From NCBI GenBank assembly GCA_016840465.1, contig JAEOSH010000047.1, forward strand, positions 1-18,936: 18,936 nt of DNA, given 5' to 3'. A model generated the notes under the pieces. That model was not told the DNA's origin and ran no database searches. It saw nothing but the letters and a program-made list of their open reading frames with translations. The DNA comes from Candidatus Baldrarchaeum yapensis. GTDB lineage: Archaea; Asgardarchaeota; Baldrarchaeia; Baldrarchaeales; Baldrarchaeaceae. The position numbers and the translations under genes were made by a program. The number at the start of each line of letters is the position of its first letter. Position 1 is the first letter of the stretch. This document shows, piece by piece, positions 1,902 through 18,936 of the stretch.

Positions 1902-1923
1902 ACAACGCACCATGGTGGTATGA

Positions 1924-2283
1924 ATGCCAGTGGAGTACAAGCAAGTAATCGTTGTGCGGACGGATATAAAAATGAGTAAGGGGAAGTTGGCGGCGCAAGT
2001 GGCACACGCTAGCGTGACCGCGGCCGAAGTTGCTAGGATCAGATATCATGAATGGTGGAATGCTTGGTTCCTGCAAGGGCAAAAGAAGGTCGTTCTCAAA
2101 GTTAAAAGTCTTGACGAGTTGATAAAAATAAAGGAGGAAGCTGAGCGAGAAAAACTGCCAGTTGCCATGATACAGGACCGCGGCCTGACAGAGTTACCCC
2201 CAGGTACCATAACGGCTCTTGGAATAGGTCCAGCTCCAAGTGAACGTATAGATAAAATAACGGGCCCTCTTCCACTACTCTAG
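1924..2283 (+). CDS. pth2: Peptidyl-tRNA hydrolase, archaeal/eukaryotic type (Pth2)
   Basis: A 119-residue protein covering a complete Pth2 domain, the usual family length. Pth2 cleaves the ester bond of peptidyl-tRNAs released prematurely from ribosomes, recycling tRNA in the cytoplasm. The N-terminal segment KQVIVVRTDIKMSKGKLAAQ, followed by VAHAS, is the family's signature strand and helix containing the catalytic-site Lys and His region. MIQDRGLTELPPGT and TALGIGPAP match the C-terminal conserved blocks. The start is the ATG at 1924; an in-frame GTG two codons later is possible. The next gene, truD, begins 12 bases downstream on the same strand, so the two probably form a tRNA-quality and modification operon. 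The gene starts only 22 bases from the divergent reductase start, so its promoter must lie inside that gene's 5' coding sequence. Confidence 0.95.
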   Translation: MPVEYKQVIVVRTDIKMSKGKLAAQVAHASVTAAEVARIRYHEWWNAWFLQGQKKVVLKVKSLDELIKIKEEAEREKLPVAMIQDRGLTELPPGTITALGIGPAPSERIDKITGPLPLL

Positions 2284-2295
2284 AGGCTGATATCT

Positions 2296-4343: not shown

Positions 4344-4390
4344 GCTCTTCCCTCGGATTACTTATGTGATTACCTCACAATACGAGGATC

Positions 4391-4405
4391 AATAAAAACC
4401 TTTCC
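4391..4405 (-). promoter_or_regulatory. Predicted promoter of eS1 (BRE/TATA)
   Basis: The minus strand reads GGAAAGGTTTTTATT, a purine-rich BRE followed by a T/A-rich TATA box. Transcription would start near 4368, about 25 bases before the eS1 ATG at 4343, leaving room for the GAGGGAAG ribosome-binding site. This suggests the ribosomal gene can be expressed separately from the upstream DHH-Pcc1 genes. Pattern match only. Confidence 0.5.
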
Positions 4406-4418
4406 TTCACGAACACGA

Positions 4419-4679
4419 TCAAGATTTGTGCCTCTTCAAACGGTACACGTCGTTTATCAACTGCGTGCTCACAACAAGGTCATCTATTGTAGATATCAAT
4501 GTATCCACACGGGCGGTACTCTCAACCTCTGTAATGACAACATCGCCCTCGGCCCTCGTCTCTATGTCAATGCCCTCCGGCGCAAACCTGTTCTCCACCG
4601 ATAATACCTTCTCCAATATCTTAGCATGCTTCTCGTTCTCCGCAAAATATTTGACAAGCACCCGAATCTTAACCGGCAT
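4419..4679 (-). CDS. pcc1: KEOPS complex subunit Pcc1
   Basis: An 86-residue protein with the small Pcc1 fold. The N-terminal strand is KIRVLVKYFAENEKHAKILEKV. A middle hairpin contains GDVVITEVES, and the closing helix is ARVDTLISTIDDLVVSTQLINDV. Pcc1 dimerises and docks onto Kae1 in KEOPS, which makes the N6-threonylcarbamoyl modification (t6A) of tRNA position 37. The length is typical. It overlaps the 3' end of the upstream DHH gene by 11 bases, and GGAGGGGG just upstream of its ATG is a strong ribosome-binding site, so the two are co-transcribed. The position between a RecJ-like gene and eS1 matches a recurring archaeal neighbourhood, which supports the assignment of a short divergent sequence. 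Confidence 0.82.
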   Translation of the reverse strand: MPVKIRVLVKYFAENEKHAKILEKVLSVENRFAPEGIDIETRAEGDVVITEVESTARVDTLISTIDDLVVSTQLINDVYRLKRHKS

Positions 4680-6156
4680 TTGACCCCCTCCTCATGGAAC
4701 CTACAATCCTGTCTACTGTCCTCAAAAACTCCTCTTCCTTACCTCTGGGTATTTGGCCGCCTGCAGCGATATCATGCCCCCCGGCGATACCATCCAGCCC
4801 CAACTCCTCAATTGCCCTCCTTAGCGCTGCACCCAGATCTACACCCTCCTGGACAACCTTCTCAGTAGTCCTCGCCGAAATCTTCACTTTATCAGGGAAA
4901 TCCTTCAAGTACGCAAGACCCAAGACAGGTTTATCTCCATTAACGATTCTCGTGGACAGTGCCAAGGAGATAACTGTCCCTATCATTCGATCATCGATAA
5001 AGTCTCCTCCATGTACGTATCTTATGTTCTCCATCTCGACAACAGCGGTAGACTTGTTCCTCAGGAGCCAATTGACATATCGCGCAAGGTTCTCACGATA
5101 CTTGCCCATAATATCCATTGCCCTCTTGAAGAACTCTCCTCGATCTCCCATGCACACGATCACGCCGATCGTGGGATATCCCATTCTTCCGCATGCATTG
5201 AGCAACGATGCATACTCCCTTGCATCCCTCAGTGGGGATCCCCTCTTCTCATGCGGAAATGTGTAAACTATGCCAACGATGCTCTCCGCCTCCGCAGAAC
5301 TCAGACCGGACATTATCATGTGGTTCACAAGCCCCGAAACAAACGCCCTCTTCTCCTCCTCTGACAAATCAGAAAGCGTCCTCCATCTACCGTTCGAATC
5401 CTTTATGTTTATTCCGACAACACGCCTCACAAAATTGAGGCACGCCATGCGATCCCCTGTAAGCCCCGGTATAAAGGGATCGGTGGTGTACTCCAGTGCC
5501 ACGTGAATCGGGCGCGTCTCCCTTCCAAATAACTTTATGTCCTTACGAACCTCAATGTACCCCCTCCGCACCCCCTCTTCCACGAAGACGTCATTGAGAC
5601 CCACAAGTGCGCCATCCTCCCCCTTATCTTGCCTGTCCCCTATTGCCCCCACAACCGCTAACGGGCACAGATCTATATTGCTCTCATCCAGCATATACGC
5701 AACCGAGAAGACAACCGAAGAACTACTCGCCTCCCGCGCGCCGTCTATACCGAATAAATGAGGATTCAAGTGTATCACATTATCGCCACCGCTGGCACTG
5801 GGCGGGTGATGATCCAGTACAACTATCTTTTTCTTTTCCGATAACGCTTTTATTATCAGATCGAGCTGCCCACTGCCCAGATCCGTGAACACATAAAAAT
5901 CGTAGTCTTCCGATTTTAACCTCGAAATGTCATCCACAGTTAGTTGTCTGAGCACACTCAAATGATAAATGGCATCTTTCCTGTTTAAAACCGAACATAT
6001 GACCCCAGCCGAGGTCAAACCGTCCGCATCAAGGTGTGAAATTATTCTTATTGCACCATCACCGATAATTTCCTCGAGTCTCCCCGCTACCTCCTCCGCC
6101 TCCTCAAGAAACCTCCTATACCTCTCCTCTAAATCTTCAAGGGAAAAGGAATGCAT
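4669..6156 (-). CDS. RecJ-like DHH family phosphoesterase (GAN-type)
   Basis: A 495-residue single-strand-specific nuclease or phosphoesterase candidate of the DHH/DHHA1 superfamily. HLDADG (residues 41-46), TDLGSG (91-96) and VLDHH (113-117) are the metal-binding motifs. GGHDIAAGG near 459-467 is the DHHA1 substrate-binding motif, so the active site looks intact. A coiled, acidic helix precedes the DHH domain. Archaeal proteins of this type include GAN, which binds the GINS replication complex and acts on single-stranded DNA from its 5' end; others act on RNA. The gene lies 10 bases after uS15 and overlaps pcc1, as often seen in archaea. I prefer the ATG at 6156, which has GGTG five bases upstream, over the GTG at 6162. 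Which substrate this member prefers cannot be told from sequence. Confidence 0.88.
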   Translation of the reverse strand: MHSFSLEDLEERYRRFLEEAEEVAGRLEEIIGDGAIRIISHLDADGLTSAGVICSVLNRKDAIYHLSVLRQLTVDDISRLKSEDYDFYVFTDLGSGQLDLIIKALSEKKKIVVLDHHPPSASGGDNVIHLNPHLFGIDGAREASSSSVVFSVAYMLDESNIDLCPLAVVGAIGDRQDKGEDGALVGLNDVFVEEGVRRGYIEVRKDIKLFGRETRPIHVALEYTTDPFIPGLTGDRMACLNFVRRVVGINIKDSNGRWRTLSDLSEEEKRAFVSGLVNHMIMSGLSSAEAESIVGIVYTFPHEKRGSPLRDAREYASLLNACGRMGYPTIGVIVCMGDRGEFFKRAMDIMGKYRENLARYVNWLLRNKSTAVVEMENIRYVHGGDFIDDRMIGTVISLALSTRIVNGDKPVLGLAYLKDFPDKVKISARTTEKVVQEGVDLGAALRRAIEELGLDGIAGGHDIAAGGQIPRGKEEEFLRTVDRIVGSMRRGSNAG

Positions 6157-6166
6157 TTCCACACCA

Positions 6167-6616
6167 TCAGATAAGCCGCACCTTCTCGGGCTCGTACTTC
6201 CAGTCCGATGGGAGCTTTCCTACCCTCTTGTAGTACTTCACAAGCCTGTGTATCTTGCTCTCTATCAACTGTAACCCTCTACGTGAATGAATGTCCTTCG
6301 GATGTTCCTCGAGGTGCATTCTGAGGTTAACAGCACGTCTGATCAAATTCTGAAGGTCCTCCGGTATCTCTGGCGCTAGTCCATGCTCACGTAGTATCTG
6401 TGTTATTTTCTTACCGGTTATCTGCTTAACGAGCGGTATCCCATATTGATCTCTCAGAATTATACCTATCATGCTCGGAGGATGACCCTCCTTCGCTAAC
6501 TTTACTACCAGCGCTTCCACTTCCTCAGGTGTATATCTGACCCACTCTGGAGGGGTCTTCCTAGGTGGTCTCGTCGAACCTGATTTTCCTTTCCTCCTTG
6601 CATGCATTCGTGCCAT
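6167..6616 (-). CDS. rps15: 30S ribosomal protein uS15
   Basis: A 149-residue archaeal-type uS15, longer than the bacterial protein because of its N-terminal extension. It begins [14 protein letters not shown], the near-invariant archaeal start. The [20 protein letters not shown] extension is followed by the S15 core with [20 protein letters not shown], which contacts 16S rRNA, and ends in [15 protein letters not shown]. The ATG at 6616 is chosen because upstream in-frame residues do not resemble the family and GGGAGTGGTG precedes it. It lies 67 bases downstream of tRNA-Asp on the same strand and leads into the RecJ-like gene 10 bases later, so a tRNA-uS15-nuclease-Pcc1 transcript is plausible. 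Confidence 0.96.
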
Positions 6617-6683
6617 GAAGCACCACTCCCGATGATCCAGACTTCTGTGAAATTTCCTCCGAGAACGAAACAATATATTGAAA

Positions 6684-6760
6684 TGGCGCCCCGGCCGGGA
6701 TTTGAACCCGGGTCGCGGGCTCGACAGGCCCGCATGCTAACCGGGCTACACCACCGGGGC
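6684..6760 (-). tRNA. trnD: tRNA-Asp (GTC)
   Basis: The minus strand folds into a complete cloverleaf. The acceptor stem is GCCCCGG/CCGGGGC. The D arm starts GTGTAGCCCGGTTAGC. The anticodon stem GCGGGC/GCCCGC closes loop CTGTCGA, giving anticodon GTC. The T arm is ACCCGGGTTCAAATCCCGG. The discriminator is G, as expected for tRNA-Asp, and the CCA end is encoded at 6686-6684. No intron is needed to fold it. It sits 67 bases upstream of uS15. Confidence 0.97.
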
Positions 6761-6780
6761 AAAACCTACCATTTCCGGCC

Positions 6781-6796
6781 CCGATGTTTTTATCGG
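6781..6796 (-). promoter_or_regulatory. Promoter of tRNA-Asp, embedded in a palindrome
   Basis: The minus strand reads CCGATAAAAACATCGG. TATAA-like ATAAAAA is centred about 29 bases upstream of the tRNA-Asp 5' end at 6760, the distance expected for an archaeal tRNA promoter. The TATA is flanked by the perfect arms CCGAT (6781-6785) and ATCGG (6792-6796). Confidence 0.55.
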
Positions 6797-6802
6797 CGTG
6801 CT

Positions 6803-6827
6803 GGTGGAGGACCCTTTTAACTCCACC
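6803..6827. repeat. 7-bp inverted repeat upstream of the tRNA-Asp promoter
   Basis: GGTGGAG at 6803-6809 and CTCCACC at 6821-6827 form perfect arms around an 11-base A/T-rich spacer. It lies directly upstream of the tRNA-Asp TATA element, so it could be an operator or activator site for the tRNA-uS15 transcript. It could equally be a chance palindrome. Confidence 0.35.
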
Positions 6828-7220
6828 TTTAACTATACCACTTTCTATCCTTTAAGTACTTTTCTGAGGAGGACTCATACTTCCGATAGGGGGCCAGATA
6901 CCAATACATTCATCCCTTTAAGGGCATATAACTGAGGCGAGTTTTACTGGCGAAGGTGCGATTGATACCGCAACTGGTGATGAAACAAACCGACCGCGTT
7001 AGCATAGCAATTTTTCATAGTGGGCATAGTAATAATTTTATGAAAGACTAACAGCATTTGTGGTTGCGCCGTTAGGTTTGCTTTAATAACAGAATTTTGA
7101 GGAGAAGCGGGCTCGATCATGTCCTCGACTGCCATCACACCCTTGGTTAAATTAAAAAGTACTATTTGTGTTTCATAATAACTGACACTCGTTCGACACC
7201 ACTTGGGGTTCTCCCCACGC

Positions 7221-7308
7221 GCCGGGGTGGCCGAGTGGTTTAGGCGGCGGACTGCAGTAATGGACAGATATCCGCTTTACCGGGGTTCGAATCCCCGCCC
7301 CGGCTCCA
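7221..7308 (+). tRNA. trnC: tRNA-Cys (GCA) with a 12-nt intron at 37/38
   Basis: The acceptor stem GCCGGGG/CCCCGGC is followed by discriminator T, the identity base of tRNA-Cys, and an encoded CCA (7306-7308). The D arm is GCCGAGTGGTTTAGGC and the T arm CGGGGTTCGAATCCCCG. The anticodon stem GCGGA/TCCGC closes only if TAATGGACAGAT (7258-7269) is removed, giving the loop CTGCAGA with anticodon GCA. The interruption is exactly at the canonical archaeal position between bases 37 and 38. CTG of the loop can pair with CAG of the intron, leaving three-base bulges AGT and ATA. Cutting each after its second base gives the predicted exon ends, which is the bulge-helix-bulge geometry with a weak central helix. 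Confidence 0.95.
7258..7269 (+). other. 12-nt tRNA-Cys intron (relaxed BHB)
   Basis: Twelve bases between G37 and A38 break the otherwise perfect anticodon stem-loop. A three-pair helix (CTG 7252-7254 with CAG 7265-7267) and two three-base bulges define the splice sites for the tRNA splicing endonuclease. The intron is near the short end of known archaeal tRNA introns. Confidence 0.88.
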
Positions 7309-7786
7309 CTTTCTAAATATTCATGATGATTTTATTTTGTCTTTATTGCTGAGATTGTTCTGAATGTTTAGGTAGCAGTACAACACCACGTTTAAGGAGA
7401 TTGAGAAATTCTTTTCGTCTACCTTCACATGATCCCAGCTGTGCCTCATTTTAAGTATGTGTCGTTAACGTGGTTACATGTGTACAACGTGTGGGGGAAG
7501 TACAGTGCCGGAGTTGAACAAGCAGTTGATTACCACCTTCCAATTCGCTTATTGTTGAAAAATAAACGATCTTTAGAGGCCCTAAGTGAATTAGAGGTGA
7601 AAAGCCGACGGAAGATTTCAACAATATCGTATATACGGGAAGATTGAAATTTTTCTAGTTTTGTGAAGAAGATCGCACTAGGGATGTCCTCACGATTCGT
7701 CTATTACTACTTAGGCAACTCATGTTATCCAAAAGAATTAAGTATAGATTAGGAGACTTACACGGAAAAGTTTCGGAGGTGGTGGT
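7309..7786 (+). other. 480-bp gap with the promoter and leader of the downstream regulator
   Basis: After tRNA-Cys comes a T-rich tract (about 7331-7349), plausible as an archaeal termination signal. A 72-codon frame at 7429-7647 starts with an ATG but has no ribosome-binding site and matches no family I recognise, so I do not call it. At 7731-7746, AAAAGAATTAAGTATA resembles BRE plus TATA and would start RNA near 7768, just before the strong GGAGGTGG at 7775-7782. I see nothing else supportable. Confidence 0.5.
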
Positions 7787-7846
7787 ATGAGCGGAGGTGA
7801 GTACTGGATCCTTGCAAGAGCAAAAGGTGGTGACTACTTCCTCTGA
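7787..7846 (+). CDS. Possible 19-codon upstream ORF overlapping the regulator start
   Basis: ATG at 7787 is preceded by GGAGGTGG (7775-7782), the best ribosome-binding site in this neighbourhood, and opens a 19-residue peptide MSGGEYWILARAKGGDYFL ending at TGA 7844-7846. It overlaps, in another frame, the first 50 bases of the winged-helix gene whose GTG is at 7797. It could be a leader peptide coupling or attenuating translation of the regulator, or the true start of a gene whose frame was broken by a base error. No family is recognised. Confidence 0.35.
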   Translation: MSGGEYWILARAKGGDYFL

Positions 7847-8198
7847 GGATGTCGCGGCTACGGTGGTTAGTGTATTCCACGCACCCCGCGGGTCGATAAT
7901 AGAGTTGATGTTAAAGAGAATAAGATTTCTCGAACAGGCGCTCGTGAAATTTGCGATGTCCGAACTCACAGATCTGCAGAAAACACTTCTCAAGAAAGTG
8001 CGTGAAAACGAGGGTAAGAAGACCTTAACGGCACTAACTCGAGAGTTATCCAAGAGGTATGGAATTCCTGAATCTACTGTGAAATGGAATCTAAGGAAGT
8101 TAAGAGATATGGGGCTGATAATTGCGGGCAACGCAGAGAGCAAGGGTACCCCGGTGTCCCTGACCGAGATAGGACGTCTAGTTGTCCGCCACTTATAA
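7797..8198 (+). CDS. Small winged-helix DNA-binding regulator
   Basis: A 133-residue protein. Its C-terminal half (about 55-133) is a winged helix-turn-helix. Helix LTDLQKTLLKKVREN leads to TLTALTRELSKRYGIPESTV, continuing KWNLRKLRDMGLI as the recognition helix and start of the wing. It ends GTPVSLTEIGRLVVRHL. This is typical of archaeal ArsR/MarR-like regulators. The first 35 residues are low-complexity and have no recognised fold. The GTG at 7797 is used because the frame upstream is closed by TGA at 7788-7790. An ATG at 7908 would give a 96-residue protein that keeps the whole DNA-binding domain. It precedes the KaiC-like ATPase gene by about 130 bases on the same strand and may regulate it. 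No effector domain is visible. Confidence 0.7.
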   Translation: MSTGSLQEQKVVTTSSEDVAATVVSVFHAPRGSIIELMLKRIRFLEQALVKFAMSELTDLQKTLLKKVRENEGKKTLTALTRELSKRYGIPESTVKWNLRKLRDMGLIIAGNAESKGTPVSLTEIGRLVVRHL

Positions 8199-8329
8199 TC
8201 CGTTTCGTGCCTTCTCACGTCTTCATTTCATTTCACGTTTATTTTTTGGTCACAATCTCTTGGATATTATGCCGGTATAGTAGCGGTTTTTTATGAGGTG
8301 GGAGGAACTTTTCTAGAGAGTGATACGTG

Positions 8330-9223
8330 ATGGAGGTAGAGATAGAAAGGATACCGACTGGCGTTTCGAAACTCGATGAGCTATTATGTGGAGGCATACC
8401 TAGGGGTTTTTTTGTGGCCGTGACCGGACCGCCGGGCACCGGGAAGACCGTCCTTTGCATTCATTTTATCGGTGAGGGCCTCAAGCGTGGGGAACCATGC
8501 ATTTATGTAACTACAGAGGAAAGTAGGGAGAGCATAGTAAGGCAGGCGGCTCAGTTTGGCATGGACTTTGGGGATGCGCTGGAGATGGGTAACTTAATAG
8601 TAATAGACGCACTCATGAGGGAAGGTGGAGATCCCTGGACATTATACACGCTGGATGTTCGCTCTCTTGTCGATAAGATTATTGAGGCGAAGAAACATCT
8701 CGGATACGGACATGCAAGACTTGTGATTGATAGTCTAAGTGCATTTTGGCTTGATAAGCCAGCGGTAGCTCGAAGAGATAGTTATTTCGTGAAGAAAGTG
8801 TTGTTCCAGTGGGGATTCACAATATTGGCCATTAGCCAGTATGCGATCACAACCTCGGCCGCATTCGGCTTTGGCGTGGAGCACGTCGCCGATGGGATAA
8901 TAAGGTTCTTCAGGTCCCATAGATATGGGAAATTGAGGCGATTTTTGATGATAGAAAAGATGCGGCAGACCCCTCATGATACTAGGCTATGGGAAGTCGA
9001 AATCATTGACGGTAAGGGGATGATTTTGAAAGCACCGACCCCTCTCCGTGCGGAGGACGTTAGACTTCCAAGGCATGTCATGGAGAGGATCGCTGAAAGT
9101 GAACTCTATCAGGAGATTGTGGGCGAAATTTACGGTACATCGGCTACGGAGCAACCATTAGACGCGGAGATGAGGGGAAGCGGTGAGGATATCGAGCGAG
9201 AAAACAGCGGTCGAGGTCGATAA
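8330..9223 (+). CDS. KaiC/RAD55-like RecA-superfamily ATPase
   Basis: A 297-residue single-domain ATPase of the KaiC/GvpD/RAD55 group, which uses ATP binding or hydrolysis in oligomeric rings for signalling or DNA-related roles. It opens with RIPTGVSKLDELLCGGIPRG, the hallmark of the group. Walker A GPPGTGKT is at 33-40, VTTEES with the likely catalytic Glu at about 60-65, and Walker B RLVIDSLSAF at 130-139. The C-terminal 50 residues are charged and probably disordered. ATG at 8330 is preferred over GTG at 8327 because GAGAGTGAT sits at better spacing. The stop overlaps the next gene by one base (TAATG), so this ATPase and the double-SIS protein are translationally coupled and probably work together. 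Related archaeal proteins lack a defined substrate, so no specific function is given. Confidence 0.85.
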   Translation: MEVEIERIPTGVSKLDELLCGGIPRGFFVAVTGPPGTGKTVLCIHFIGEGLKRGEPCIYVTTEESRESIVRQAAQFGMDFGDALEMGNLIVIDALMREGGDPWTLYTLDVRSLVDKIIEAKKHLGYGHARLVIDSLSAFWLDKPAVARRDSYFVKKVLFQWGFTILAISQYAITTSAAFGFGVEHVADGIIRFFRSHRYGKLRRFLMIEKMRQTPHDTRLWEVEIIDGKGMILKAPTPLRAEDVRLPRHVMERIAESELYQEIVGEIYGTSATEQPLDAEMRGSGEDIERENSGRGR

Positions 9224-10536
9224 TGAGAATACAAAGCCTTATATTGTCATGTTACGTAGAAGGCTTACCGCGGGTGGGGCATGTGTCACTGATAAATGTG
9301 CGCGTTCCCATAAGGAAGGACGACATGGAGAGGGCGCTAATAATCGCGCAGAACACGACAAGATACCTGATAGATCAGGCTGCGGAGAACATAAAGTACA
9401 CCTTTGAGACGCAGAGGGAGAAATTAGTGCATTTTCTCGACTTTCTCGCAAATTATGACAGAGGGAGAATACATTTTGCGGCGAGAGGAAGAAGTCTGTA
9501 TCTCGGGGCACGAACGCTTGCCGACCGCCTTATACAACTGGGGATAAACGCAGTTTACCCAACTCTCGAACAATATGTCGTGTACGATCCGAACGCATAT
9601 CTGAGCAAGGGCGATATGATAATATGTTTCAGCACGTCCGGCAAGACGATGAAAGTTGTGAAGAAGGCAAAATTTGGCAGGGAGATAGGATGTGAGGTTG
9701 TAGTTATAACCGGAAATTTAGACTCCCCGCTGGCATCCTTAGCTACAAAGTCCCCAATATTCTTACATCCGAAACATAACAGTGCACGTCTCCTCCAAGA
9801 TTACGAGGAGGAGTTCAAACCTATCACTCCACTTGGCACAACATCTGAGTTCACGCAATTGATATTTTCCGAAGCCATATCTAGGGGCCTTAAGGAAATC
9901 ATCGAAGAATCCCAGGACACCGAAAAGGCATATGAAGTTTCCCTCGAAACGGCCCTTGAGTTACTAAATAGGGCCAAGAGAAATACTAAGGTTGCTTACT
10001 CTCACAGGGAGGAGGTAAAGGAGTTTCTCGCAAACCTCATACTGAAGTATTACAGTCAGCAAACCGTACACTTCTGTGCCCGTGGGAAGACCTTCAATAT
10101 GGCTGTTGGCCCATTCAAAATGCGTCTCGATCAAATACCCCATGCCTTCGTAACGAGCATTTTGGACTTCGAACCATTAAACCGTCCGGTCCGTAAGGGG
10201 CAACTGACAATAGCCGTGAGTGGAAGCGGCGGCGCGTATACTATTGCGAAAATGGCAAAGGAAATGGGGAGTATGGTGATAGGAATCACCTCGTCAAAGA
10301 ATCAATTATGGGAAATCTCGGACGTAAAGATTCTGGTACCGGGAAGGAAAGACTCCGAAAACACCACAGATTGGGACATTAGGCAATGGAAAGGCTGGAG
10401 AGCCGACTTCGCCCCTGATGGTACGGAATTTGAAGTGTCCGCTGCTGCCTTTCTCGAGGGAATATTTGGAGGTCTCGTTGCCTACATAGGAATAGAAGAA
10501 AAAGATATGAGGGAGGGACACGCAAACATCGAATGA
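9223..10536 (+). CDS. Tandem SIS-domain protein (sugar-phosphate isomerase/binding fold)
   Basis: A 437-residue protein with two SIS domains, the fold that binds or isomerises phosphosugars. The first (about 80-225) has RIHFAARGRSLYLG and FSTSGKTMKVVKKA. The second (about 280-425) has TVHFCARGKTFNMA and AVSGSGGAYTIAKMAKEMGS. The paired HFxARG and (F/V)S(T/G)SG blocks show an internal duplication. The N-terminal 80 residues are helical with no family match. Tandem SIS occurs in GlmS-type isomerases, but the glutaminase domain is absent, and bacterial/archaeal 3-hexulose-6-phosphate isomerases have only one SIS. The reaction is therefore unassigned. The ATG overlaps the KaiC-like gene's stop by one base. 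A start at M35 is also possible. Its TGA directly abuts the stop of the convergent TFB gene. Confidence 0.85.
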   Translation: MRIQSLILSCYVEGLPRVGHVSLINVRVPIRKDDMERALIIAQNTTRYLIDQAAENIKYTFETQREKLVHFLDFLANYDRGRIHFAARGRSLYLGARTLADRLIQLGINAVYPTLEQYVVYDPNAYLSKGDMIICFSTSGKTMKVVKKAKFGREIGCEVVVITGNLDSPLASLATKSPIFLHPKHNSARLLQDYEEEFKPITPLGTTSEFTQLIFSEAISRGLKEIIEESQDTEKAYEVSLETALELLNRAKRNTKVAYSHREEVKEFLANLILKYYSQQTVHFCARGKTFNMAVGPFKMRLDQIPHAFVTSILDFEPLNRPVRKGQLTIAVSGSGGAYTIAKMAKEMGSMVIGITSSKNQLWEISDVKILVPGRKDSENTTDWDIRQWKGWRADFAPDGTEFEVSAAAFLEGIFGGLVAYIGIEEKDMREGHANIE

Positions 10537-11493
10537 TCACTTAGACGAGAGAAGATTTCTAATATCCTTGAGATTCAGCTTCTTAGTGAGTTCCTTGTAG
10601 CGGTTTCTCACCGTAACCTCCGTAACATGTGCAACCTCCGCGATTTGCCTTTGTGTTCTTCTCTCACCACCAAGTATACCTGCCACATAGAGGGCAGCTG
10701 CCGCAAGCCCCGAAGGATCTTTTCCTGCAGTAATTCCAGCCTTTTCAGCCCTATCTAAAATCTCTATTGCAAGCCTCTGGATGTATGGGGAAAGGTTCAA
10801 CTCCGCCGCAAACCTCGGCACGAAATGCTTCGCGGTCGGTCTCGGGAAGTCCTGTTGTAACTTCCTTATCAACACTCTGACACATTTCGAAACGTCTTTC
10901 CTAGAAGCCTTTGCATGCTCGACTATTTCATCAAGCGGTCTGGGTATCCTATGAAGTCTCGATGCGAGGTAAATCGCAGCAGCGGCCATTGCACTAACCG
11001 GATATCCGCGTGTTAACCTTTTCTCGACTGCCTTTCTATAAATTAGCGCAGCTGTCTCTCTTAACTCGTTAGAAACACTAAGCTGGCTTGCAATTCTGTT
11101 TAACTCTATAAGACCGTCTGTCAGGCTCCTTTTAACCATAGTGCGTACGTTCCAGCGACGTAACCTGTATATCTGGGCCCTCTTTGATGGTGATAGCTTT
11201 CTACCGTGAGCGTCCCTATCTGACCAACTAATCGTGGTACTGAGACCCTTATCGGCGAATCTAAAACTTGAAGGTGCTCCAACACGCGCTCTCTTTTCCA
11301 ACTCTTCGTGAGTGAACGCTCTCCACTCGGGTCCCATATCAACAAGATGATCAGTGATCACAAGTCCACAATTCGAGCATATGAGTTCTCCTCTGACAGG
11401 ATCTCTCAGAATTTCCTTAGATCCACACTCCGGACACTTTAGATCTTCCCTACCTTCACGCATACCATTTTTTTCATTTGTACCCGTAGACAT
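10537..11493 (-). CDS. tfb: Transcription initiation factor B (TFB)
   Basis: A 318-residue TFB, the archaeal TFIIB homologue that binds TBP-DNA and recruits RNA polymerase. An N-terminal zinc ribbon has Cys at about 20, 23, 39 and 42 (CPECG...CSNCG). It is followed by the B-reader/linker GPEWRAFTHEELEKRARVGA and KLSPSKRAQIYRLRRW. Two cyclin folds follow (about 120-212 and 215-312). The second ends in the BRE-reading helix-turn-helix with RRTQRQIAEVAHVTEVTVRN. All expected parts are present, so it appears functional. ATG at 11493 is chosen because AGGAGG lies seven bases upstream; the ATG at 11499 is only one base from that site. A strong promoter about 190 bases upstream suggests a long 5' leader. 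Confidence 0.96.
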   Translation of the reverse strand: MSTGTNEKNGMREGREDLKCPECGSKEILRDPVRGELICSNCGLVITDHLVDMGPEWRAFTHEELEKRARVGAPSSFRFADKGLSTTISWSDRDAHGRKLSPSKRAQIYRLRRWNVRTMVKRSLTDGLIELNRIASQLSVSNELRETAALIYRKAVEKRLTRGYPVSAMAAAAIYLASRLHRIPRPLDEIVEHAKASRKDVSKCVRVLIRKLQQDFPRPTAKHFVPRFAAELNLSPYIQRLAIEILDRAEKAGITAGKDPSGLAAAALYVAGILGGERRTQRQIAEVAHVTEVTVRNRYKELTKKLNLKDIRNLLSSK

Positions 11494-11710
11494 GAACATA
11501 CCTCCTAAACTTTAATTCGAGCATCAAATCGTTGCGCAAACACGTCAACCCTCAGAAGCATCTCCGGTCATTACAATTTCGGTCGCGTGCGCAGGCATCA
11601 TCGAAATCTTCAGAAGTAACATCATCCGGTAGGAAATGTCATCACAACATCATCAGATGCTCATTGTAATACTAAGTTTCAAGATCCAGTATTCCAAAAA
11701 TTTTAATTAT

Positions 11711-11730
11711 CATATTTATAAACCTTTCGC
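11711..11730 (-). promoter_or_regulatory. Strong BRE/TATA promoter, probably of tfb
   Basis: The minus strand reads GCGAAAGGTTTATAAATATG, a near-ideal archaeal BRE (GCGAAAGG) and TATA box (TTTATAAATA). RNA would begin near 11690 and reach the tfb ATG after a leader of about 190 bases, unless a non-coding RNA is made first. Confidence 0.6.
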
Positions 11731-11745
11731 AAGGTATAAAAGAAG
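11727..11745 (+). promoter_or_regulatory. Divergent BRE/TATA on the plus strand
   Basis: TCGCAAGGTATAAAAGAAG gives a BRE-like TCGCAAGG and TATAAAAG, predicting a start near 11765 on the plus strand. No gene begins within 250 bases, and the next one has its own promoter at 11971-11990. The product, if any, could be a small RNA or a leader. Confidence 0.4.
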
Positions 11746-11970
11746 AATCTCGCACCTGTGACCCTTCTCATTACAAAATATTATCGCCAGTACTTGAAAT
11801 TACTAATAAGAATTACGGTCTCGATTGTTGGGGTTTTCCGAGCCCTTATGTGGATGTTTTGAGAAGAAGAGAAAGATCGATCGGTATGCTGAGAAAACGG
11901 AGCACGATGGCGATACGTTTTCGGTATTAGAAGTTGTAAATTTTTGGAACAAATAAAGCAAGTTATTCGT

Positions 11971-11990
11971 GAAAGGATACATTTTATAAT
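11971..11990 (+). promoter_or_regulatory. Promoter of the 12038-12922 gene
   Basis: GAAAGGATACATTTTATAAT combines a purine BRE with TATA TTTTATAA. A start near 12012 would exclude the upstream GTG at 12005 and supports the GTG at 12038, which has AGGTG six bases before it. Confidence 0.5.
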
Positions 11991-12037
11991 TCGCTAGTTG
12001 TATTGTGTTATTTAGTAATACCAATCAGGTGTTCAGT

Positions 12038-12922
12038 GTGTATCATGACAATAATAGATTTCGCGTCAGAACATACGGCGATCCACCGCCACATTACCGT
12101 ATAACCATAATTGAAGAATTAGAGCGATGCTATAGAAAAATCGGGCAACCACCTCACCCTCCTGAGATTCTAATCATAGATACCGAGGAGAACCTGTTTA
12201 ACTTCTTCAAGCAGGAGGAAAATCGTCTTTCAAAACTTAATGGAACACAAATATCAAACATGTTGCCTGAAAGTTCGGTGATGCATTTCGCATGGAGAGG
12301 ATGGCCAACCATAGTAATATGCGTCGAACGAATGGAAAATCGGCCAAAACGAGTGGCGATAGCAGAGCTGGAAAGAGCAGCAGCGCACTCGGTTCTTCAT
12401 GGAACCCCCGAGTGTTATATGATACCCCTTCCACCTTCCTTCATGAGCCTACAAACAAACGGTTTCTTCTGCGAAACAACTCTGGGACTCTGTTTCTATA
12501 TACTCGCGGCCGGGGTTAAGGACTTTGAAGTGACTCGGAAACTCATAATATCCGATGAACGCTTCAGAAGAAATCAGGAACAGTTGTACATATTTCTACT
12601 CAGAATGAGTGATGAAGAATGCGAACTGTGGAGGCTCGCGGGATGTAACATAGATTTATGTGCAGTGATGCTAGCAGATACATTTAAGACCCTCGCGGGC
12701 GCGACCCCCCTCGTGATAAACGGATGTAGCAAGGAACTTATGGAATTATACGAGAAAAACATCTCGGTACTCCCTTATGGTCTCCGTCACGAAATGTATC
12801 TTGTGCTACTCGGAAGACTTCCATCCTTGGGCTATAACACCATAAAAAACGTGAATATGATCGCCGAGGAATTCGTACAACTCCTACAAAGATACATGAG
12901 TGGACACATCTTCCTCTTCTAA
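12038..12922 (+). CDS. Uncharacterised protein with a zincin-like HSVLHG motif
   Basis: A 294-residue soluble protein of no family I can name with confidence. In its middle, ELERAAAHSVLHGTPECY (about 110-127) resembles the active-site helix of small zinc-metalloprotease-like proteins. The canonical HExxH appears here as R-A-A-A-H; only the second His and a further His four residues on (H117, H121) are kept. If the comparison holds, the protein would be a non-catalytic relative. The N-terminal part has RITIIEELERCYRKIGQPPHPPE, then a strand and a HFAWRGWPTIVICVERM segment like the strand that precedes such helices. There are no membrane segments. GTG at 12038 is preferred because of the AGGTG ribosome site and promoter placement; the frame is open from 12005. 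It precedes four co-directional genes but has its own promoter. Confidence 0.72.
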   Translation: MYHDNNRFRVRTYGDPPPHYRITIIEELERCYRKIGQPPHPPEILIIDTEENLFNFFKQEENRLSKLNGTQISNMLPESSVMHFAWRGWPTIVICVERMENRPKRVAIAELERAAAHSVLHGTPECYMIPLPPSFMSLQTNGFFCETTLGLCFYILAAGVKDFEVTRKLIISDERFRRNQEQLYIFLLRMSDEECELWRLAGCNIDLCAVMLADTFKTLAGATPLVINGCSKELMELYEKNISVLPYGLRHEMYLVLLGRLPSLGYNTIKNVNMIAEEFVQLLQRYMSGHIFLF

Positions 12923-12980
12923 CATTAAAAGTTAAAACCGGAGAAGAGATCTGCGCATCCCCTACCTCCAACCTGTGTCC

Positions 12981-12988
12981 TTTAAATA
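12981..12988 (+). promoter_or_regulatory. TATA box before the 13031 gene
   Basis: TTTAAATA preceded by GTGTCC lies about 25-30 bases upstream of a likely start near 13010. AGGAGG (13018-13023) and the GTG at 13031 follow at correct spacing. This suggests a second transcription unit covering 13031 to about 15508. Confidence 0.42.
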
Positions 12989-13030
12989 CTAACCCTCAAA
13001 AATATTGGTGAGACCTTAGGAGGCTGTCGC

Positions 13031-14077
13031 GTGGAATTAGTGGAAAAATTCCGCGAAATTATGAGGCGTAAATTCAATATGGAATTTGATGAGGAGTCAC
13101 TAAAAAGAATACGCGAGTCATTTGTAGAAAAAGTACTGGAGAAGGACACTATTGTGTCGCTCTCCTGCGAAGTCGCTGGTGAATCGGAAATTTTAGCACA
13201 ACACTTCGATCAACTTCTCACAATTGGATGTGCACTAAGTTTACTTGTTCTCTTTAAGGATGATGATGATGTATTTCATGAACTTGGACGAGTGTGGGCA
13301 AGAATATGTAAAGAGTGTGCTAAGAGCATAGGCAAAGAACCAGCAAACATGATATGCGACGCAATAGGAACCCTGTTTGCCCTACATTTCCCCAGACTTG
13401 CAGATATATTCGGAAGAAGGGTAGTAATATCGGCACACCTTTACGTTCGAAAGCGAGATTTAAAACTCCACATCGAAGAGGGCAAAAAACTAAAAGTTGT
13501 TTCAAGAGAACTCGATGACGAGCAGAGGTTTGAAATGAAGGTCGTGTGTGAAGAGTGCGGAAAAACTCTCGTAGCAATAAGATTCCCAAAGGCAAGAAAC
13601 AAAAGGAAAGGAAAAAGAATATTGGCAAACTCCATAAGGCTCCTTTGTCTCATCCTGCATATTTCAAACGGTGAGAATGTGCAGGTGAAACCCTTTTGGC
13701 ATCTATCGGATACCTCAGAAACCATAACCCTCAGATTCTTCTGTGAAGAATGTGGGGTCTTCTTCTTCGATCTCGATATCCCCATCGGTAAACCCAAGCG
13801 CCTGCTCAACGTCGCCTATGGCATTGCGGAATCCCTTTACATGCTCTTAGGTTCCTCAATAGAGAACGTCCCACCATGGCTCTTTAATAGAATCGTCGAC
13901 GTCAGTACTCTCTACGTCTCCTCCGCAAACGTGAGTACAAGGCGATACCTCCAAGAAATAGAAGAATGCATTTCAATAGCGGAAGAAGAAGGCCTGCCCG
14001 AGCACATAAAGAACATAATAAAAAGTTTCGCATCCCGTATAATTAGGGAAAAGGAAGGCGCCGAGTACATAATATGA
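13031..14077 (+). CDS. Uncharacterised protein with a duplicated CEECG zinc-site module
   Basis: A 348-residue protein not matching any family I recognise. The N-terminal half (1-150) is helical with a CKEC at 93-96. The C-terminal half holds an internal repeat: VVCEECGKTLVAIRFP at about 171-186 and FFCEECGVFFFDLDIP at about 236-251. Each is followed by a basic KR-rich turn and a hydrophobic helix. The two CxxC pairs (C173/C176, C238/C241) could together bind one zinc or iron, or each could sit in half of a duplicated fold. The GTG start at 13031 is supported by AGGAGG seven bases upstream. The last codons overlap the ATG of the DUF3795-like gene (ATGA), so the two are translationally coupled. 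There is no signal peptide or clear membrane span. Confidence 0.75.
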   Translation: MELVEKFREIMRRKFNMEFDEESLKRIRESFVEKVLEKDTIVSLSCEVAGESEILAQHFDQLLTIGCALSLLVLFKDDDDVFHELGRVWARICKECAKSIGKEPANMICDAIGTLFALHFPRLADIFGRRVVISAHLYVRKRDLKLHIEEGKKLKVVSRELDDEQRFEMKVVCEECGKTLVAIRFPKARNKRKGKRILANSIRLLCLILHISNGENVQVKPFWHLSDTSETITLRFFCEECGVFFFDLDIPIGKPKRLLNVAYGIAESLYMLLGSSIENVPPWLFNRIVDVSTLYVSSANVSTRRYLQEIEECISIAEEEGLPEHIKNIIKSFASRIIREKEGAEYII

Positions 14078-14415
14078 TTAAAATCGATAAAATTGCTAAT
14101 GCTCGAATGGAGCACGAAACCATGACTGTGAGCAAGGAAAATACTCTTCGGCGGATTGTAGGGGCCTGCGGAGTGCTATGCGAAGCATGTCCACTATTCA
14201 GAAGAAGGGAGAACAGATGCTTGGGCTGCGTTGAATATAACGAAAGATGTGCGAAGGAAGGAAAAACTATATGTAAATTTTATGCATGCGCGAAAAGGAA
14301 GTCCGTTGGTATGTGCTTCTACTGCGACGAATTTCCATGCACCTTACATTATGAAGATGGAATATATACAACTCGCATTCTAAATCTGTGGAAGTCTCTC
14401 CTCGGAAAAGAATAA
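14074..14415 (+). CDS. DUF3795-like cysteine-rich protein
   Basis: A 113-residue protein with eleven cysteines. ACGVLCEACPLF at 31-42, CLGC at 49-52, CKFYACAKRKSVGMCFYC at 67-84 and C89 in EFPC match the layout of the DUF3795 family, which is widespread in anaerobes and archaea and presumably binds metal. The conserved ending LHYEDGIYTTRILNLW fits as well. The first ATG overlaps the preceding stop by four bases; shorter starts at M12 or M17 are possible, since the family part begins near residue 25. It is followed 15 bases later by a YkgJ-like gene, so several cysteine-rich metal proteins are made together. The biochemical role of the family is not established. Confidence 0.82.
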   Translation: MIKIDKIANARMEHETMTVSKENTLRRIVGACGVLCEACPLFRRRENRCLGCVEYNERCAKEGKTICKFYACAKRKSVGMCFYCDEFPCTLHYEDGIYTTRILNLWKSLLGKE

Positions 14416-14430
14416 AATGGCGATCAAAAA

Positions 14431-14910
14431 ATGCCGTTTACCTGCATAAGATGCGGTAAGTGCTGCACCGAAACTGAAATGCTACTGCTGGAGGAAGATA
14501 TTGCAAGGCTTGAGTCGCTAGGACACAATAGGTCTGAGTTCTCACTCATTAGAAGAGACGGCCTCGTGCAACTCAAAAACGTCAATGGCCATTGTTACTT
14601 CTTCGACCCCGCTACGAGAAGGTGTAAGGTGTACGAGTGGAGACCCCTAGGATGCCGCTTTTACCCAATAATATACTCGATAACCGAGGATAAATGCGTG
14701 CCTGACAAGGACTGTCCTATGTCTCACACAGTATCGCCCGAGGAGATAAAAAGAGCATGCCCTCATCTTAGAAAGCTCGTCAAGCAACTCATTGCAGAGG
14801 CCCACATCCGTAAGTTGCTGTTCTCAGGTGATTACTATGAACATGACAAAAAGGATTATAAAGTTTGCAAGAAGACTAGGCGTGGACATAATAGGCATAG
14901 CGGACGTTAA
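14431..14910 (+). CDS. YkgJ family zinc/iron-chelating cysteine protein
   Basis: A 159-residue protein of the YkgJ type (CxxCxxCC family), annotated in databases as putative zinc- or iron-chelating. FTCIRCGKCC at 3-12 is the defining motif. GHCYFFDPATRRCKVYEWRP (53-72), continuing LGCRFYP, is the second conserved block, with C55, C65 and C75. Further Cys at 89, 95 and 110 may add ligands. The gene starts 15 bases after the DUF3795-like gene. Its last 74 bases overlap the start of the QueG-like gene in another frame, and its C-terminal 25 residues (Lys/Arg/His-rich) look unlike family sequence, so the tail may be a consequence of the overlap. Substrate and partner are unknown. Confidence 0.85.
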   Translation: MPFTCIRCGKCCTETEMLLLEEDIARLESLGHNRSEFSLIRRDGLVQLKNVNGHCYFFDPATRRCKVYEWRPLGCRFYPIIYSITEDKCVPDKDCPMSHTVSPEEIKRACPHLRKLVKQLIAEAHIRKLLFSGDYYEHDKKDYKVCKKTRRGHNRHSGR

Positions 14911-15508
14911 ACATTTTAAAGCAGCACCTGAAGATCAGAAACCGGAGAATATACTACCAAACGCGAATACTGTCATCGTAGTTGGAATAAAACTGCTAGA
15001 CGCGGTGGTCGAAACCGCACCAAGCAGAGAGTACGCGATACACTACATGGTAGTCAATGAGGAGCTTAATAGGATAGCTTACCACTTAGCCCGTCATATA
15101 GAAAAAATGGGGTACGAGGCCGTGCCGATTCCCGCCTCCTCCCCATACGATGAGAGAAACCTTAAGGGGAGCATATCACATAGACATGCAGCAATGCTTG
15201 CAGGTATCGGGTGGATAGGTAAGAGTTCTCTCCTCATATCGCCAGAATACGGACCGCGCATCCGTCTAGTATCAATAATTACTGCAGCCCCTCTCACCCC
15301 TAATGAGCCCTTCGGGCAAAACCTATGTGGAGACTGCAATATTTGTGAGAAGTATTGTCCGACAAACGCCATTAAGGATAGTAATTTGAATAAGACGGCA
15401 TGCGTCTCTTACATGAGAAAATTGCAAAAAGATCTCGGAATTAACGATCTCATATGTGGCATATGCGTAAAGGTTTGCCCCTATGGCAGAAAAACCCGCA
15501 AAACATAA
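14837..15508 (+). CDS. QueG-like double [4Fe-4S] protein (short epoxyqueuosine reductase paralogue)
   Basis: A 223-residue protein resembling the cobalamin-dependent epoxyqueuosine reductase QueG but without its C-terminal HEAT repeats. SHRHAAMLAGIGWIGKSSLL (114-133) and the SIITAAPLTPNEPF stretch match the core. The iron-sulphur part has C164, C167, C170, C174 (CGDCNICEKYCP), the ACVSYMRK block with C189 (compare CISYLTIE in QueG), and C207, C210, C214 (CGICVKVCPYG), enough for two [4Fe-4S] clusters. ATG 14837 is preceded by AGGTGAT (14826-14832), a good ribosome-binding site, and lies inside the YkgJ-like gene. Archaea normally carry archaeosine rather than queuosine, so it is unlikely to be a true QueG. 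An electron-transfer or corrinoid-linked reductase role is inferred only. Confidence 0.83.
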   Translation: MNMTKRIIKFARRLGVDIIGIADVKHFKAAPEDQKPENILPNANTVIVVGIKLLDAVVETAPSREYAIHYMVVNEELNRIAYHLARHIEKMGYEAVPIPASSPYDERNLKGSISHRHAAMLAGIGWIGKSSLLISPEYGPRIRLVSIITAAPLTPNEPFGQNLCGDCNICEKYCPTNAIKDSNLNKTACVSYMRKLQKDLGINDLICGICVKVCPYGRKTRKT

Positions 15509-15516
15509 TAATCTTG

Positions 15517-15683
15517 TGGCCCCGGGGATCCAGGCGGCGCAACAGGGAATTTCAACGGGTGGGGCAAGGGATCATGGAGGCACCAGACTCTTAGTGATAA
15601 GGGATGCCCCAGAAGGCGCCCGCACCCGCATCGGGACGCCCTGGGTGCCCAAGGAGAGGTAATGTCCTGGATCCCCGGGGCCA
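15517..15683. ncRNA. GC-rich structured element closed by an 18-bp perfect inverted repeat
   Basis: TGGCCCCGGGGATCCAGG (15517-15534) is exactly complementary to 15666-15683. The 131-base interior can fold further: GGCGC 15536-15540 with 15616-15620, enclosing TGGGGCA 15560-15566 with 15605-15611, plus a separate hairpin GCACCC 15622-15627 with 15643-15648. The GC content is far above the flanks, as for stable RNAs in thermophiles. A TATA-like TTTATATG (minus strand, 15704-15711) lies about 25 bases before the minus-strand end at 15683, so transcription could run on the minus strand. I could not match it to SRP RNA, RNase P RNA or a box C/D RNA. A MITE-like mobile element with long terminal repeats is the alternative. 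It lies between convergent genes. Confidence 0.6.
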
Positions 15684-15703
15684 TGTATAATTCTGCATAA
15701 CGT

Positions 15704-15711
15704 CATATAAA
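15704..15711 (-). promoter_or_regulatory. TATA-like box facing the structured element
   Basis: The minus strand reads TTTATATG, preceded by AATCAT. Its centre is 24-26 bases upstream of 15683, the first base of the inverted-repeat element on that strand. The spacing is right for transcription starting at the element's edge. It is a pattern match without other support. Confidence 0.35.
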
Positions 15712-15825
15712 ATGATTATGTTGGAGGAAGAGGTACCAGTATTTCATGTGTATAGTATCACTATGACATGTTTGTGATGAGAAGTGATATTTTGGATCTC
15801 TTTTTAAAATCCCCGTGATAATGCA

Positions 15826-18492
15826 TTACTGCCCACCGTGAGACTTTTGCGCCAGAAGATCACGCTCCTTAGTTATTATCTCGGCGATTTTCCTCCCCGC
15901 ATCCATTGATGGCACACTATAAAATCTCCCTCCCGCGAGAATGGCGATCAATCTTGTCAATGCAATGCCAACTGCTGGAAAGTCCCAACGTTTCTCCACT
16001 TCTTTAACGAACGCGTCACCATCAAAATGACCGTCGACCGTGCATCTCCTATAAACTTCCATAACATCCTCATCGCTCATTTTATAAGCTTCAGCGGCGG
16101 GATCCGGGTTTATGACGACAAAATGAACTCCGGCCCTCTTCATCGTTAGAGAAACCCGTATAACGTCTTCTATCGCCAACTCCCGCTTTGACGCTGCGGT
16201 AAACGCGCTAATAGGTCTTGTTTCCCCAGTATCCGGATCCTTAAGTAGAGGAACATTCGCAAAGCCGTCTGTGATCAATACAATCATGGGTATAACTTCT
16301 GGATCTCGTAATCTTTCCCTTTTAACGGCCATCAACGCCTCCACTAAGCCAGATGCCAGCGGAGTGTATCCACTCACCCTTAACTTCCTCAACTTTCCAG
16401 CAACGGCTCTCAAGTTTCTCGTGGGATACTGTATTACCGCCGCACCTGTATCTTTCAGTGCAATTATCCCCAGTTTATCACGATACCTATATGCGTCCTG
16501 ATAGAGCTTTAAAAGCGCCTCACGAAGTTGCATCAAAGTTATCATCATCGACTCGCTGATATCGAGTACCAGTAATATTGTGATCGGAGCATAATAGGCA
16601 TGTACGCACTCCCTTATGTCCTCCTTCGAAATATTCACTATCTCTGCATCATTAAATCCAGCACCTCGTGCAGCAGCCGCCCGTATGGTCGCAGGTATGT
16701 GAACTGTATGCACCTCTCCCCGCGGTAATCGCCAACCTATAACTCTCCCTTGTCTTGCTTCTGATAACGTCAATGCTCGCTTTCCAATGCTCTGTCTAGT
16801 TATCTTGTCCCTCCCTCTAATCTTGAAAGTCAAATCATACGTCTTGAGTAGGCTCATCCTCAGGGACGCGATCACCATCAGACCTCTAAAAAAATCCGAT
16901 ATACGGCGTTTGAACCCCAAAAATCCAGCAGATAACATTCGTTCTCTCAAAGTCCTCAGTAGCGAAGATTCCTTCCTCTTCTGTGGCAATGAAATTTCTT
17001 CAGCGGACTTCAAAGGTCTTATCAGTCTCTTGAGGAGCGTCGCTAGTGCGTAGATGAACAACACGGATAATAACATTGGCAATAGAACTGGCGGAGAAAA
17101 CCCGACATTCATAAAAATTATATAAAGGATCGCCGCTACGAAGAACAAAGTCGGCAAAATAAGCGCCTTAAAACGAATCTTCACAGCTCGCTTGCCTATG
17201 AGCCTGCCCCTAATTGCCGAAGAACTCACAGTCCTTTTGTCTTTACTTGCTCCACTGCCTTTAGCGGAACTTCTCGACCCGGTGGGAGCAACCGCCTGCC
17301 TGATCCCCTCAACAGGAAATTCTTTAGGGATCTCCTCTCTATATTCTTTCACCCTCATCTCATCCAATGCTCTCTTAAAAGCCTCTCTTATCTCGTCTTC
17401 GCTCGGCGGTTCTAGGAACCCTTTCTTCCTAGTTCTATGCTGTAACGCCAATTTCGCCGCTTTTAAGACATCTTCTTCCGTCACAACATTCCTTTCATCC
17501 AGCGCGGCTATTGCCCTTGCCGTTTTATAAATTACTATGTCAGGCCTCATCCCATCTACCTGAAGTTGCACACACATCCTGCATATTGCCTCTAACAAAC
17601 GCTCCGGAATCCTCACCTTTGGCAACAACTCCCGCGCCCTTAAAATCCTCTTCCGCAACTTCTCTTGCTCCTTTTTAAACTTCCTATAAAAGTTCTCCGG
17701 ATCTCTCTCAAACTCGATATTCCTCCGTACTATCTCCATGCGCTCCTCCACTGACATGACGTTGTCCACCGTGACCGAAAGTGCAAGCCGATCCAACAAC
17801 TGCGGCCTTAACTCGCCCTCCTCGGGGTTCATTGTGCCAATAAGTACAAATCGGGAGGGATGCCTAACAGAAATCCCTTCTCGCTCCACAACATTCCATC
17901 CCGATGCGGCAACATCCAGAAGATCGTCAACTAAATGATCCGGCAACAGGTTTATCTCATCAATGTAAAGGATATTTTGGTTCGCATCTGCCAGAATTCC
18001 TGGCTTGAAGGCCTCAATCCCTCCCCTCAGCGCCCTCTCAACATCTATACTCCCCACAACTCTATCTTCCGTCGCACTCAGAGGTAATGTTATTATCCGC
18101 ATTTTTCTCCTTGTTACCGGGAGTTCCTCTCCCCGCTCATACCTCTCTCTACACCGCTCACACATGTTCGTTGGATCCCTCGGATTGCAACCATACCGGC
18201 AATCCTTTACAACCTCGACCTCCGGAAGCAAATCCTCCAACGCCCTTACGAGTGTCGACTTCCCTGTTCCCTTCGGACCCCTTATTAAAACTCCACCGAT
18301 CGTAGGATCAACTACGTTGACCAAAAGTGCAAGTTTCGCGTCTTCAAGACCAACAAATGCTGTAAAGGGCAATATATGTCGCGTCAAAAGTGCCAACCTC
18401 TCGCTCCCGTTGCTATTGCCAGAAATGCCATAAAAAACAACGTTTTTGTAAATCAACTTGCACCGTAAATAACTCCGACAAACTACAAGCAT
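15826..18492 (-). CDS. Mg/Co-chelatase-type I+D fusion with an inserted transmembrane hairpin
   Basis: An 888-residue fusion of an AAA+ BchI/CobS-like half and a BchD/CobT-like von Willebrand A half. The AAA+ part has GFVGLE-like [12 protein letters not shown] (47-58), Walker [10 protein letters not shown] (72-80), a Cys cluster (98, 102, 111, 114), Walker [12 protein letters not shown] (174-184) and [17 protein letters not shown] (219-235). The vWA part has the MIDAS residues DISES (644-648), T710 and D742. Between them lie two strongly hydrophobic segments (about 443-461 and 466-488), unusual for these soluble chelatase subunits and predicting a membrane-anchored protein with both halves on one side. 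Such proteins drive Mg or Co insertion together with a ChlH/CobN subunit, or act as MoxR-like chaperones. No large subunit is in the window. The first 40 residues are extra; a start nearer residue 36-40 is possible. Confidence 0.87.
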
Positions 18493-18519
18493 AACTCAAG
18501 AACCTCTGCAATAACGTGG

Positions 18520-18527
18520 TATTTAAG
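18520..18527 (-). promoter_or_regulatory. Promoter of the chelatase-type gene
   Basis: The minus strand reads ACAGGCTTAAATACC, with TATA CTTAAATA at 18527-18520. A start about 26 bases downstream falls near 18497, only about five bases before the ATG at 18492. The mRNA may therefore be essentially leaderless, which agrees with the lack of a ribosome-binding site there. Confidence 0.48.
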
Positions 18528-18674
18528 CCTGTCGGCAATCACACCCCAACTTTATCACTTTATGAAAAACTTTCCTTCTCACAAACAAACTAAATATGAA
18601 TCACCCGCACTCGACTCCCCTAAACTATCCTTTTTTAATTTCGACATGCACACTCTTTCACATAAAAACGTTTA

Positions 18675-18700
18675 TTATTTGCAATCACGCTCGCAAATAA
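18675..18700. repeat. 8-bp operator-like palindrome
   Basis: TTATTTGC (18675-18682) and GCAAATAA (18693-18700) are perfect inverted arms 10 bases apart. They lie between the divergent chelatase-type and permease genes, about 60-75 bases upstream of the permease TATA element. A dimeric regulator site is plausible. Confidence 0.42.
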
Positions 18701-18757
18701 ATGACGAATTTTTACCCGAGACTGTCACATTGCACCGACCCATATTTATACTCCGGC

Positions 18758-18773
18758 GCGAAACCTTTAAGTA
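18758..18773 (+). promoter_or_regulatory. Promoter of the permease gene
   Basis: GCGAAACCTTTAAGTA matches BRE (GCGAAACC) plus TATA (TTTAAGTA). RNA would start near 18794, about 30 bases before the TTG at 18825 and ahead of the AGGTG at 18814-18818. Confidence 0.5.
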
Positions 18774-18824
18774 ACAAACCTCCTCTTTCCATTTAAATTC
18801 AGATGAAGTTGTCAGGTGAGAGGG

Positions 18825-18936
18825 TTGGCTGAGGAAGTAATCTTCGTCAGGAAGGCTACTGGGCTAGTCAGAGAAGTTGGTCCATTCACAGCAATGAGCA
18901 TCGTACTCTGCCACGTTATCGGTGGTGGTATTAACT
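18825..18936 (+). CDS. APC-superfamily amino-acid permease (N-terminus only)
   Basis: Only the first 37 codons are in the window. After LAEEVIFVRKATG, the sequence LVREVGPFTAMSIVLCHVIG followed by GGIN is the typical entrance of APC-family transporters: RKATGLVREVGP, then the first, partly unwound membrane helix with its glycine-rich break. This family couples amino-acid or polyamine uptake to ion gradients in the cytoplasmic membrane. TTG at 18825 is chosen because AGGTG (18814-18818) lies six bases upstream; an in-frame GTG at 18816 falls inside that site. The gene runs off the window end, so its substrate cannot be judged. Confidence 0.75.
   Translation, partial: MAEEVIFVRKATGLVREVGPFTAMSIVLCHVIGGGIN

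Follow-up and report, generated by a model that had tools for sequence, protein, structure and literature searches.

Hgc RNAs, structured RNAs of AT-rich hyperthermophiles, were discovered computationally and then confirmed by northern blotting (PMC4247193, on HgcC). The locus described here resembles them in being an intergenic, strongly folded GC island in an AT-richer thermophile genome. It lies in an 18,936-nt stretch of DNA from Candidatus Baldrarchaeum yapensis (contig JAEOSH010000047.1, positions 1 to 18,936; hereafter the window) and consists of a structured interior enclosed by a perfect inverted repeat (Table 1). We regard this element, with moderate confidence, as an orphan gene for a stable structured noncoding RNA that is specific to this Baldrarchaeia lineage and falls outside the described families. 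If transcribed, it would be a structured RNA of no established class, made by an uncultured, heat-adapted Asgard archaeon that is related to the closest archaeal kin of eukaryotes.

Table 1. The element, its parts, its candidate signals and its flanking genes, in window coordinates
Feature	Position	Strand	Remarks
QueG-like 4Fe-4S protein (Fer4_16), flanking gene	14792..15508	+	
Candidate terminators, oligo-T runs TTTT and TTTTT	15490..15503	-	overlap the QueG-like gene end in antisense
GC-rich structured element, proposed RNA gene	15517..15683	- favoured, strand uncertain	GC 0.65; fold z -4.6/-5.4; single copy
Closing-helix arm 1, TGGCCCCGGGGATCCAGG	15517..15534	+	18-bp perfect inverted repeat; unique in genome at BLASTN E<=10
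Element interior, 131 nt	15535..15665	n/a	rod of short helices; own excess stability weak (z ~ -2)
Closing-helix arm 2, CCTGGATCCCCGGGGCCA	15666..15683	+	partner of arm 1 in the 18-bp perfect inverted repeat
Candidate TATA box, TTTTATATG	15704..15712	-	-29 to -21 counted from 15683
AAA + VWA magnesium-chelatase-type protein, flanking gene	15826..18492	-	

A folded GC island between convergent genes

The QueG-like and chelatase-type genes, which the initial annotation had correctly named as neighbours, converge on a gap of 317 nt, and the element begins within this gap, 9 nt past the QueG-like stop codon. The proposed 167-bp GC-rich element with its 18-bp perfect closing helix was found as described, and so was its sharp contrast in composition to the flanks: neighbouring windows have a GC content of 0.36-0.50, and the genome as a whole of about 44-46%. 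The two arms are separated by the entire interior. In a 418-kb sample of the element's own genome (GC 0.44), which we surveyed for repeats and GC islands, no other perfect inverted repeat of at least 16 bp with arms at most 400 nt apart was found.

Folding against a shuffled control, a check that the initial annotation had suggested, set the element clearly apart. The predicted fold has an energy of -94.8 kcal/mol on the plus strand (z -4.63) and of -92.4 kcal/mol on the minus strand (z -5.36), and on either strand none of 200 dinucleotide shuffles was as good. Without the closing helix, the interior shows a modest stability excess (z -1.9 plus, -2.2 minus), which 17 of 500 shuffles on the plus strand and 13 of 500 on the minus strand equalled. 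The excess stability of the element is thus predicted to reside mainly in its closing helix. A multibranched shape with three nested internal helices, as initially proposed, did not emerge from these calculations: the fold of lowest energy is a rod that has internal loops but no branch points, and a multiloop of any kind occurred in only 31-42% of sampled structures. In the predicted fold, an asymmetric bulge of 14 nt adjoins the closing helix. The plus-strand bulge AAGGAGAGGUAAUG is similar to a Shine-Dalgarno sequence, and the bulge on the minus strand is the pyrimidine complement thereof. The plus-strand fold also contains a hairpin capped by GUGA, a GNRA-type loop.

Indications for the direction of transcription are mixed. 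The minus-strand TATA box of the initial annotation is well placed, as its spacing fits a transcript beginning with the first nucleotide of the closing helix, but as a motif it is weak. With a BRE/TATA matrix trained on the tRNA promoters of the same genome, which themselves score 3.2-15.7, it reaches 5.3 bits (motif start at -38), a score attained at 0.35% of window positions. The minus-strand 3' flank contains 46% T in 35 nt, with a longest run of 5; the background probability of a T content this high is 0.04, and the tract may simply stem from the A-rich lysine and arginine codons with which the QueG-like gene ends on the opposite strand. The best plus-strand promoter match would place the transcription start inside arm 1. 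The GNRA-type loop and the slightly better fold energy favour the plus strand, so that the strand evidence is in conflict. On balance we infer, with a slight preference, that transcription probably proceeds on the minus strand.

An RNA of about 170-190 nt would accordingly be made. Its minus-strand synthesis would most likely begin at the first closing-helix base, directed by a TATA box with its centre at about -25, and end in the T-tracts just past the opposite arm. The closing helix could lock the ends of this RNA together and protect them at high temperature, comparable to the terminal helices of the SRP and RNase P RNAs encoded in the same genome. The rod with its internal loops would be left over as the part that binds a protein or another RNA. 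It is conceivable, though on the whole unlikely, that the element founds a class of abundant structured RNAs which is new and confined to Baldrarchaeia. Such an RNA might serve as an RNP scaffold or, in view of the Shine-Dalgarno-like bulge, interact with the ribosome.

GC islands and occurrence of the element

The composition of the element is that of known RNA genes of its genome, where tRNAs have a GC content of 0.65-0.76 and RNase P RNA of 0.66. Noncoding islands of at least 60% GC in the 418-kb sample comprise tRNAs (several of them intron-bearing), SRP RNA, 16S/23S rRNA and RNase P RNA, as well as an HgcG-like H/ACA RNA and a circularly permuted 5S rRNA gene, and the few remaining islands sit in open reading frames. 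The element is the sole noncoding GC island of this survey left without a name. As its GC content is like that of known RNAs and all other resolvable noncoding islands are RNA genes, we read it as an RNA gene, too. The stable noncoding RNA of the initial annotation is therefore still the best reading, carried by GC content, islands and fold stability, while its multibranched form found no support and its promoter is weak.

The HgcG-like RNA (L125:589-857, at about 100.6-100.9 kb of contig C56) forms two GC-rich hairpin rods, the last hairpin being enclosed by a 12-bp closing helix; its matches to HgcG (E 3.8e-6) and Pyrobac-1 (E 4e-5) fall below the gathering scores, and it may be read as an HgcG-like H/ACA RNA in an Asgard archaeon. 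In a second Baldrarchaeia genome (G002), most GC islands are tRNAs, part of them intron-containing, and nothing corresponding to the element was seen. One noncoding GC-richer island of that genome (G002:C9:179196-179340, L163) has a 9-bp stem, GGCACACCT/AGGTGTGCC, and no Rfam match at gathering score. Another locus of G002 (L044:826-1185, contig C17) holds two apparently intron-bearing tRNA genes, one of which was missed by Rfam. In the window, a tRNA-like gene at 7221-7308, for which ARAGORN reads a two-base anticodon only, is either odd or intron-bearing. Intron-bearing tRNAs look common in Baldrarchaeia. The GC-richer stretches of two Thermoproteota loci (L108, L109) contained no known RNA genes.

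The element occurs once in its genome, which is 96% complete, and a genome-wide BLASTN at E<=10, another of the initially suggested checks, found its arms nowhere else. An Rfam 15 search gave no family match on either strand, neither at gathering scores nor, with permissive filtering, at E values as high as 10, in line with the initial annotation, which had named no RNA class. BLASTN against 99 Asgard genomes returned short chance matches only. With a covariance model, searches of 195 and then 227 Asgard genomes recovered only the element itself; as this model was built from one sequence and the large searches were strictly filtered, strongly diverged homologues could escape them. No homologue appeared in a lax covariance-model search of the class Baldrarchaeia or in 800 kb of G002. 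In the 418 kb of its own genome, the model found the element and one match of E = 8.5, which by inspection overlaps an intron-bearing tRNA. At the sensitivity of these searches, the element is absent from other Asgard genomes. This counts against an RNA gene, because other members of the order should have the RNA, too, if it were conserved.

In the three other Baldrarchaeia members that were compared (G001-G003), the QueG-like gene has different neighbours and synteny is not kept. The chelatase orthologue in G003 stops 122 bases from a contig end, and no GC-rich stretch is found there. GTDB contig scans with the whole chelatase protein returned nothing, and those with a chelatase alignment only known members of the class and distant relatives; the closest relatives in such a scan were from Candidatus Baldrarchaeota MAGs and one MAG labelled Odinarchaeota. 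On this basis the genome most likely belongs to Baldrarchaeia and forms a separate family there. Partner genes of a retron, an omega RNA or a tracrRNA are absent among the window genes examined, and these candidates were rejected. So was a misplaced SRP or RNase P RNA, since both are encoded elsewhere in the genome (SRP E 3e-45; RNase P E 6e-60).

Alternative explanations

Instead of being an RNA gene, the element might be a 3'-end structure in DNA or mRNA. As a long hairpin separating the convergent genes, it would stop read-through or shield the 3' ends of one or both mRNAs. Its place in the convergent gap, directly behind the QueG-like stop codon, suits this idea, as does a closing helix that bears most of the excess stability. 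Yet a terminator would not need a GC-rich structured interior of this length, comparable repeats are missing from the rest of the 418-kb sample, and archaeal termination relies on oligo-T rather than on hairpins, so we consider this explanation unlikely. Less probable still is an RNA gene processed like permuted 5S rRNA, in which the closing helix would serve as processing stem and the interior would be cut out and closed into a circle; the product might be a known RNA in permuted form. The 5S rRNA of the same genome does come from a gene of this type, whose closing helix is GC-rich, and ordinary Rfam searches put permuted genes under the cut-off. A strict bulge-helix-bulge at or near the closing helix of the element is impossible on either strand, and the rotated or doubled element yields no tRNA or tmRNA, whereas a rotated control tRNA was recovered. 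Moreover, permuted 5S rRNA still had two partial Rfam matches (E 0.0024 and 1), while the element had none up to E = 10.

A small mobile element such as a MITE, which the initial annotation had weighed as its main alternative, would account for the perfect terminal inverted repeats and the sharp compositional edges. We judge it very unlikely: the single copy and the unique arms speak against it, no direct repeat adjoins the arms in the flanking sequences (...AATCTTG and TGTATAA...), so that a target-site duplication is lacking, and size and GC content suit a structured RNA. BLASTN of the element in phage and plasmid collections found nothing, and pattern scans of IMG/VR gave 4 chance-level matches to one arm and none to the interior. 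Lowest of all is the probability that we assign to an artefact of assembly or cloning. Within the arms lies CCCGGGGATCC, which we take to resemble common cloning-vector polylinkers, and read cleaning was imperfect, as window positions 1-20 are an untrimmed Nextera adapter, AGATGTGTATAAGAGACAG. But the polylinker likeness is restricted to this 11-mer, the element is flanked by coherent archaeal genes, and its interior is without a match in the plasmid or phage collections. At the start of the contig, the first ~500 bases of the window have 55-68% GC, and that end may be chimeric. We retain an orphan RNA gene as our preferred reading.

Permuted 5S rRNA genes and comparison with known RNA systems

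By itself the element settles no open question. Its indirect value is larger, as the island survey led to circularly permuted 5S rRNA genes, a finding that we consider more interesting than the element; should the element be transcribed, the GC-island approach would still yield Asgard RNAs outside Rfam. In the Ca. B. yapensis genome (G000:C56:97630-97789, L124:17630-17789), the 3' half of the 5S rRNA precedes its 5' half within a 12-bp closing helix. By inspection, this helix is followed by a bulge-helix-bulge motif with bulge GAA, helix CGTG/CACG and bulge AGA. Excision and circularisation at this motif would restore the canonical sequence, with ...CACGGA joined to AGUUAAGCC... Further permuted loci were found in G003 (L146), G006 (L144), G007 (L148) and G008 (L147) and at L195-L224. 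One of these, L208 (G224:C277:9341-9526), carries about 30 extra bases in the 5'-half domain, possibly an intron or insertion.

When rotated, permuted 5S sequences from six genomes align over their full length with normal 5S rRNAs. Their identity to the normal 5S rRNA of G009 is 52-57%, compared with 49-51% when two further normal Asgard 5S rRNAs are set against it. At E<=0.01, a covariance model built from five permuted loci has matches, mostly full-length, in 134 Asgard genomes out of 227; among 30 loci checked, a pattern search confirmed the permuted order in 15, and another 13 were read as permuted by eye. In the five-sequence alignment, from which the structure itself was derived, both partners vary in 10 of the 12 closing-helix pairs, and 97% of cells overall are paired. 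Normal 5S genes score above the Rfam cut-off in 3 of 12 genomes (G005, G009 and G011). Judging from these sequences, permuted 5S genes are widespread in Asgard archaea. Permuted mitochondrial 5S rRNAs exist; a search of open-access papers returned none that uses the term 'permuted 5S rRNA'.

With the permuted 5S gene of its own genome, the element shares a GC-rich closing helix around a structured RNA, but it has neither the bulge-helix-bulge in that helix nor conserved 5S sequence. A likeness to box H/ACA guide RNAs lies in the ACA that directly follows the closing helix on the minus strand (...GGGGCC-ACA), which is expected by chance about once in 64 cases. The usual distance from ACA box to pocket is 14-16 nt, and the lower stem of the element, with its 18 bp, is too long for such a pocket; there was also no match to an H/ACA family and, on inspection of the predicted folds, no kink-turn. 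To the Hgc families the element has no covariance-model similarity, and the HgcG relative of this genome is a separate locus. Although it matches neither archaeal SRP RNA nor RNase P RNA, the element has a GC content similar to theirs and, like them, a long GC-rich terminal helix.
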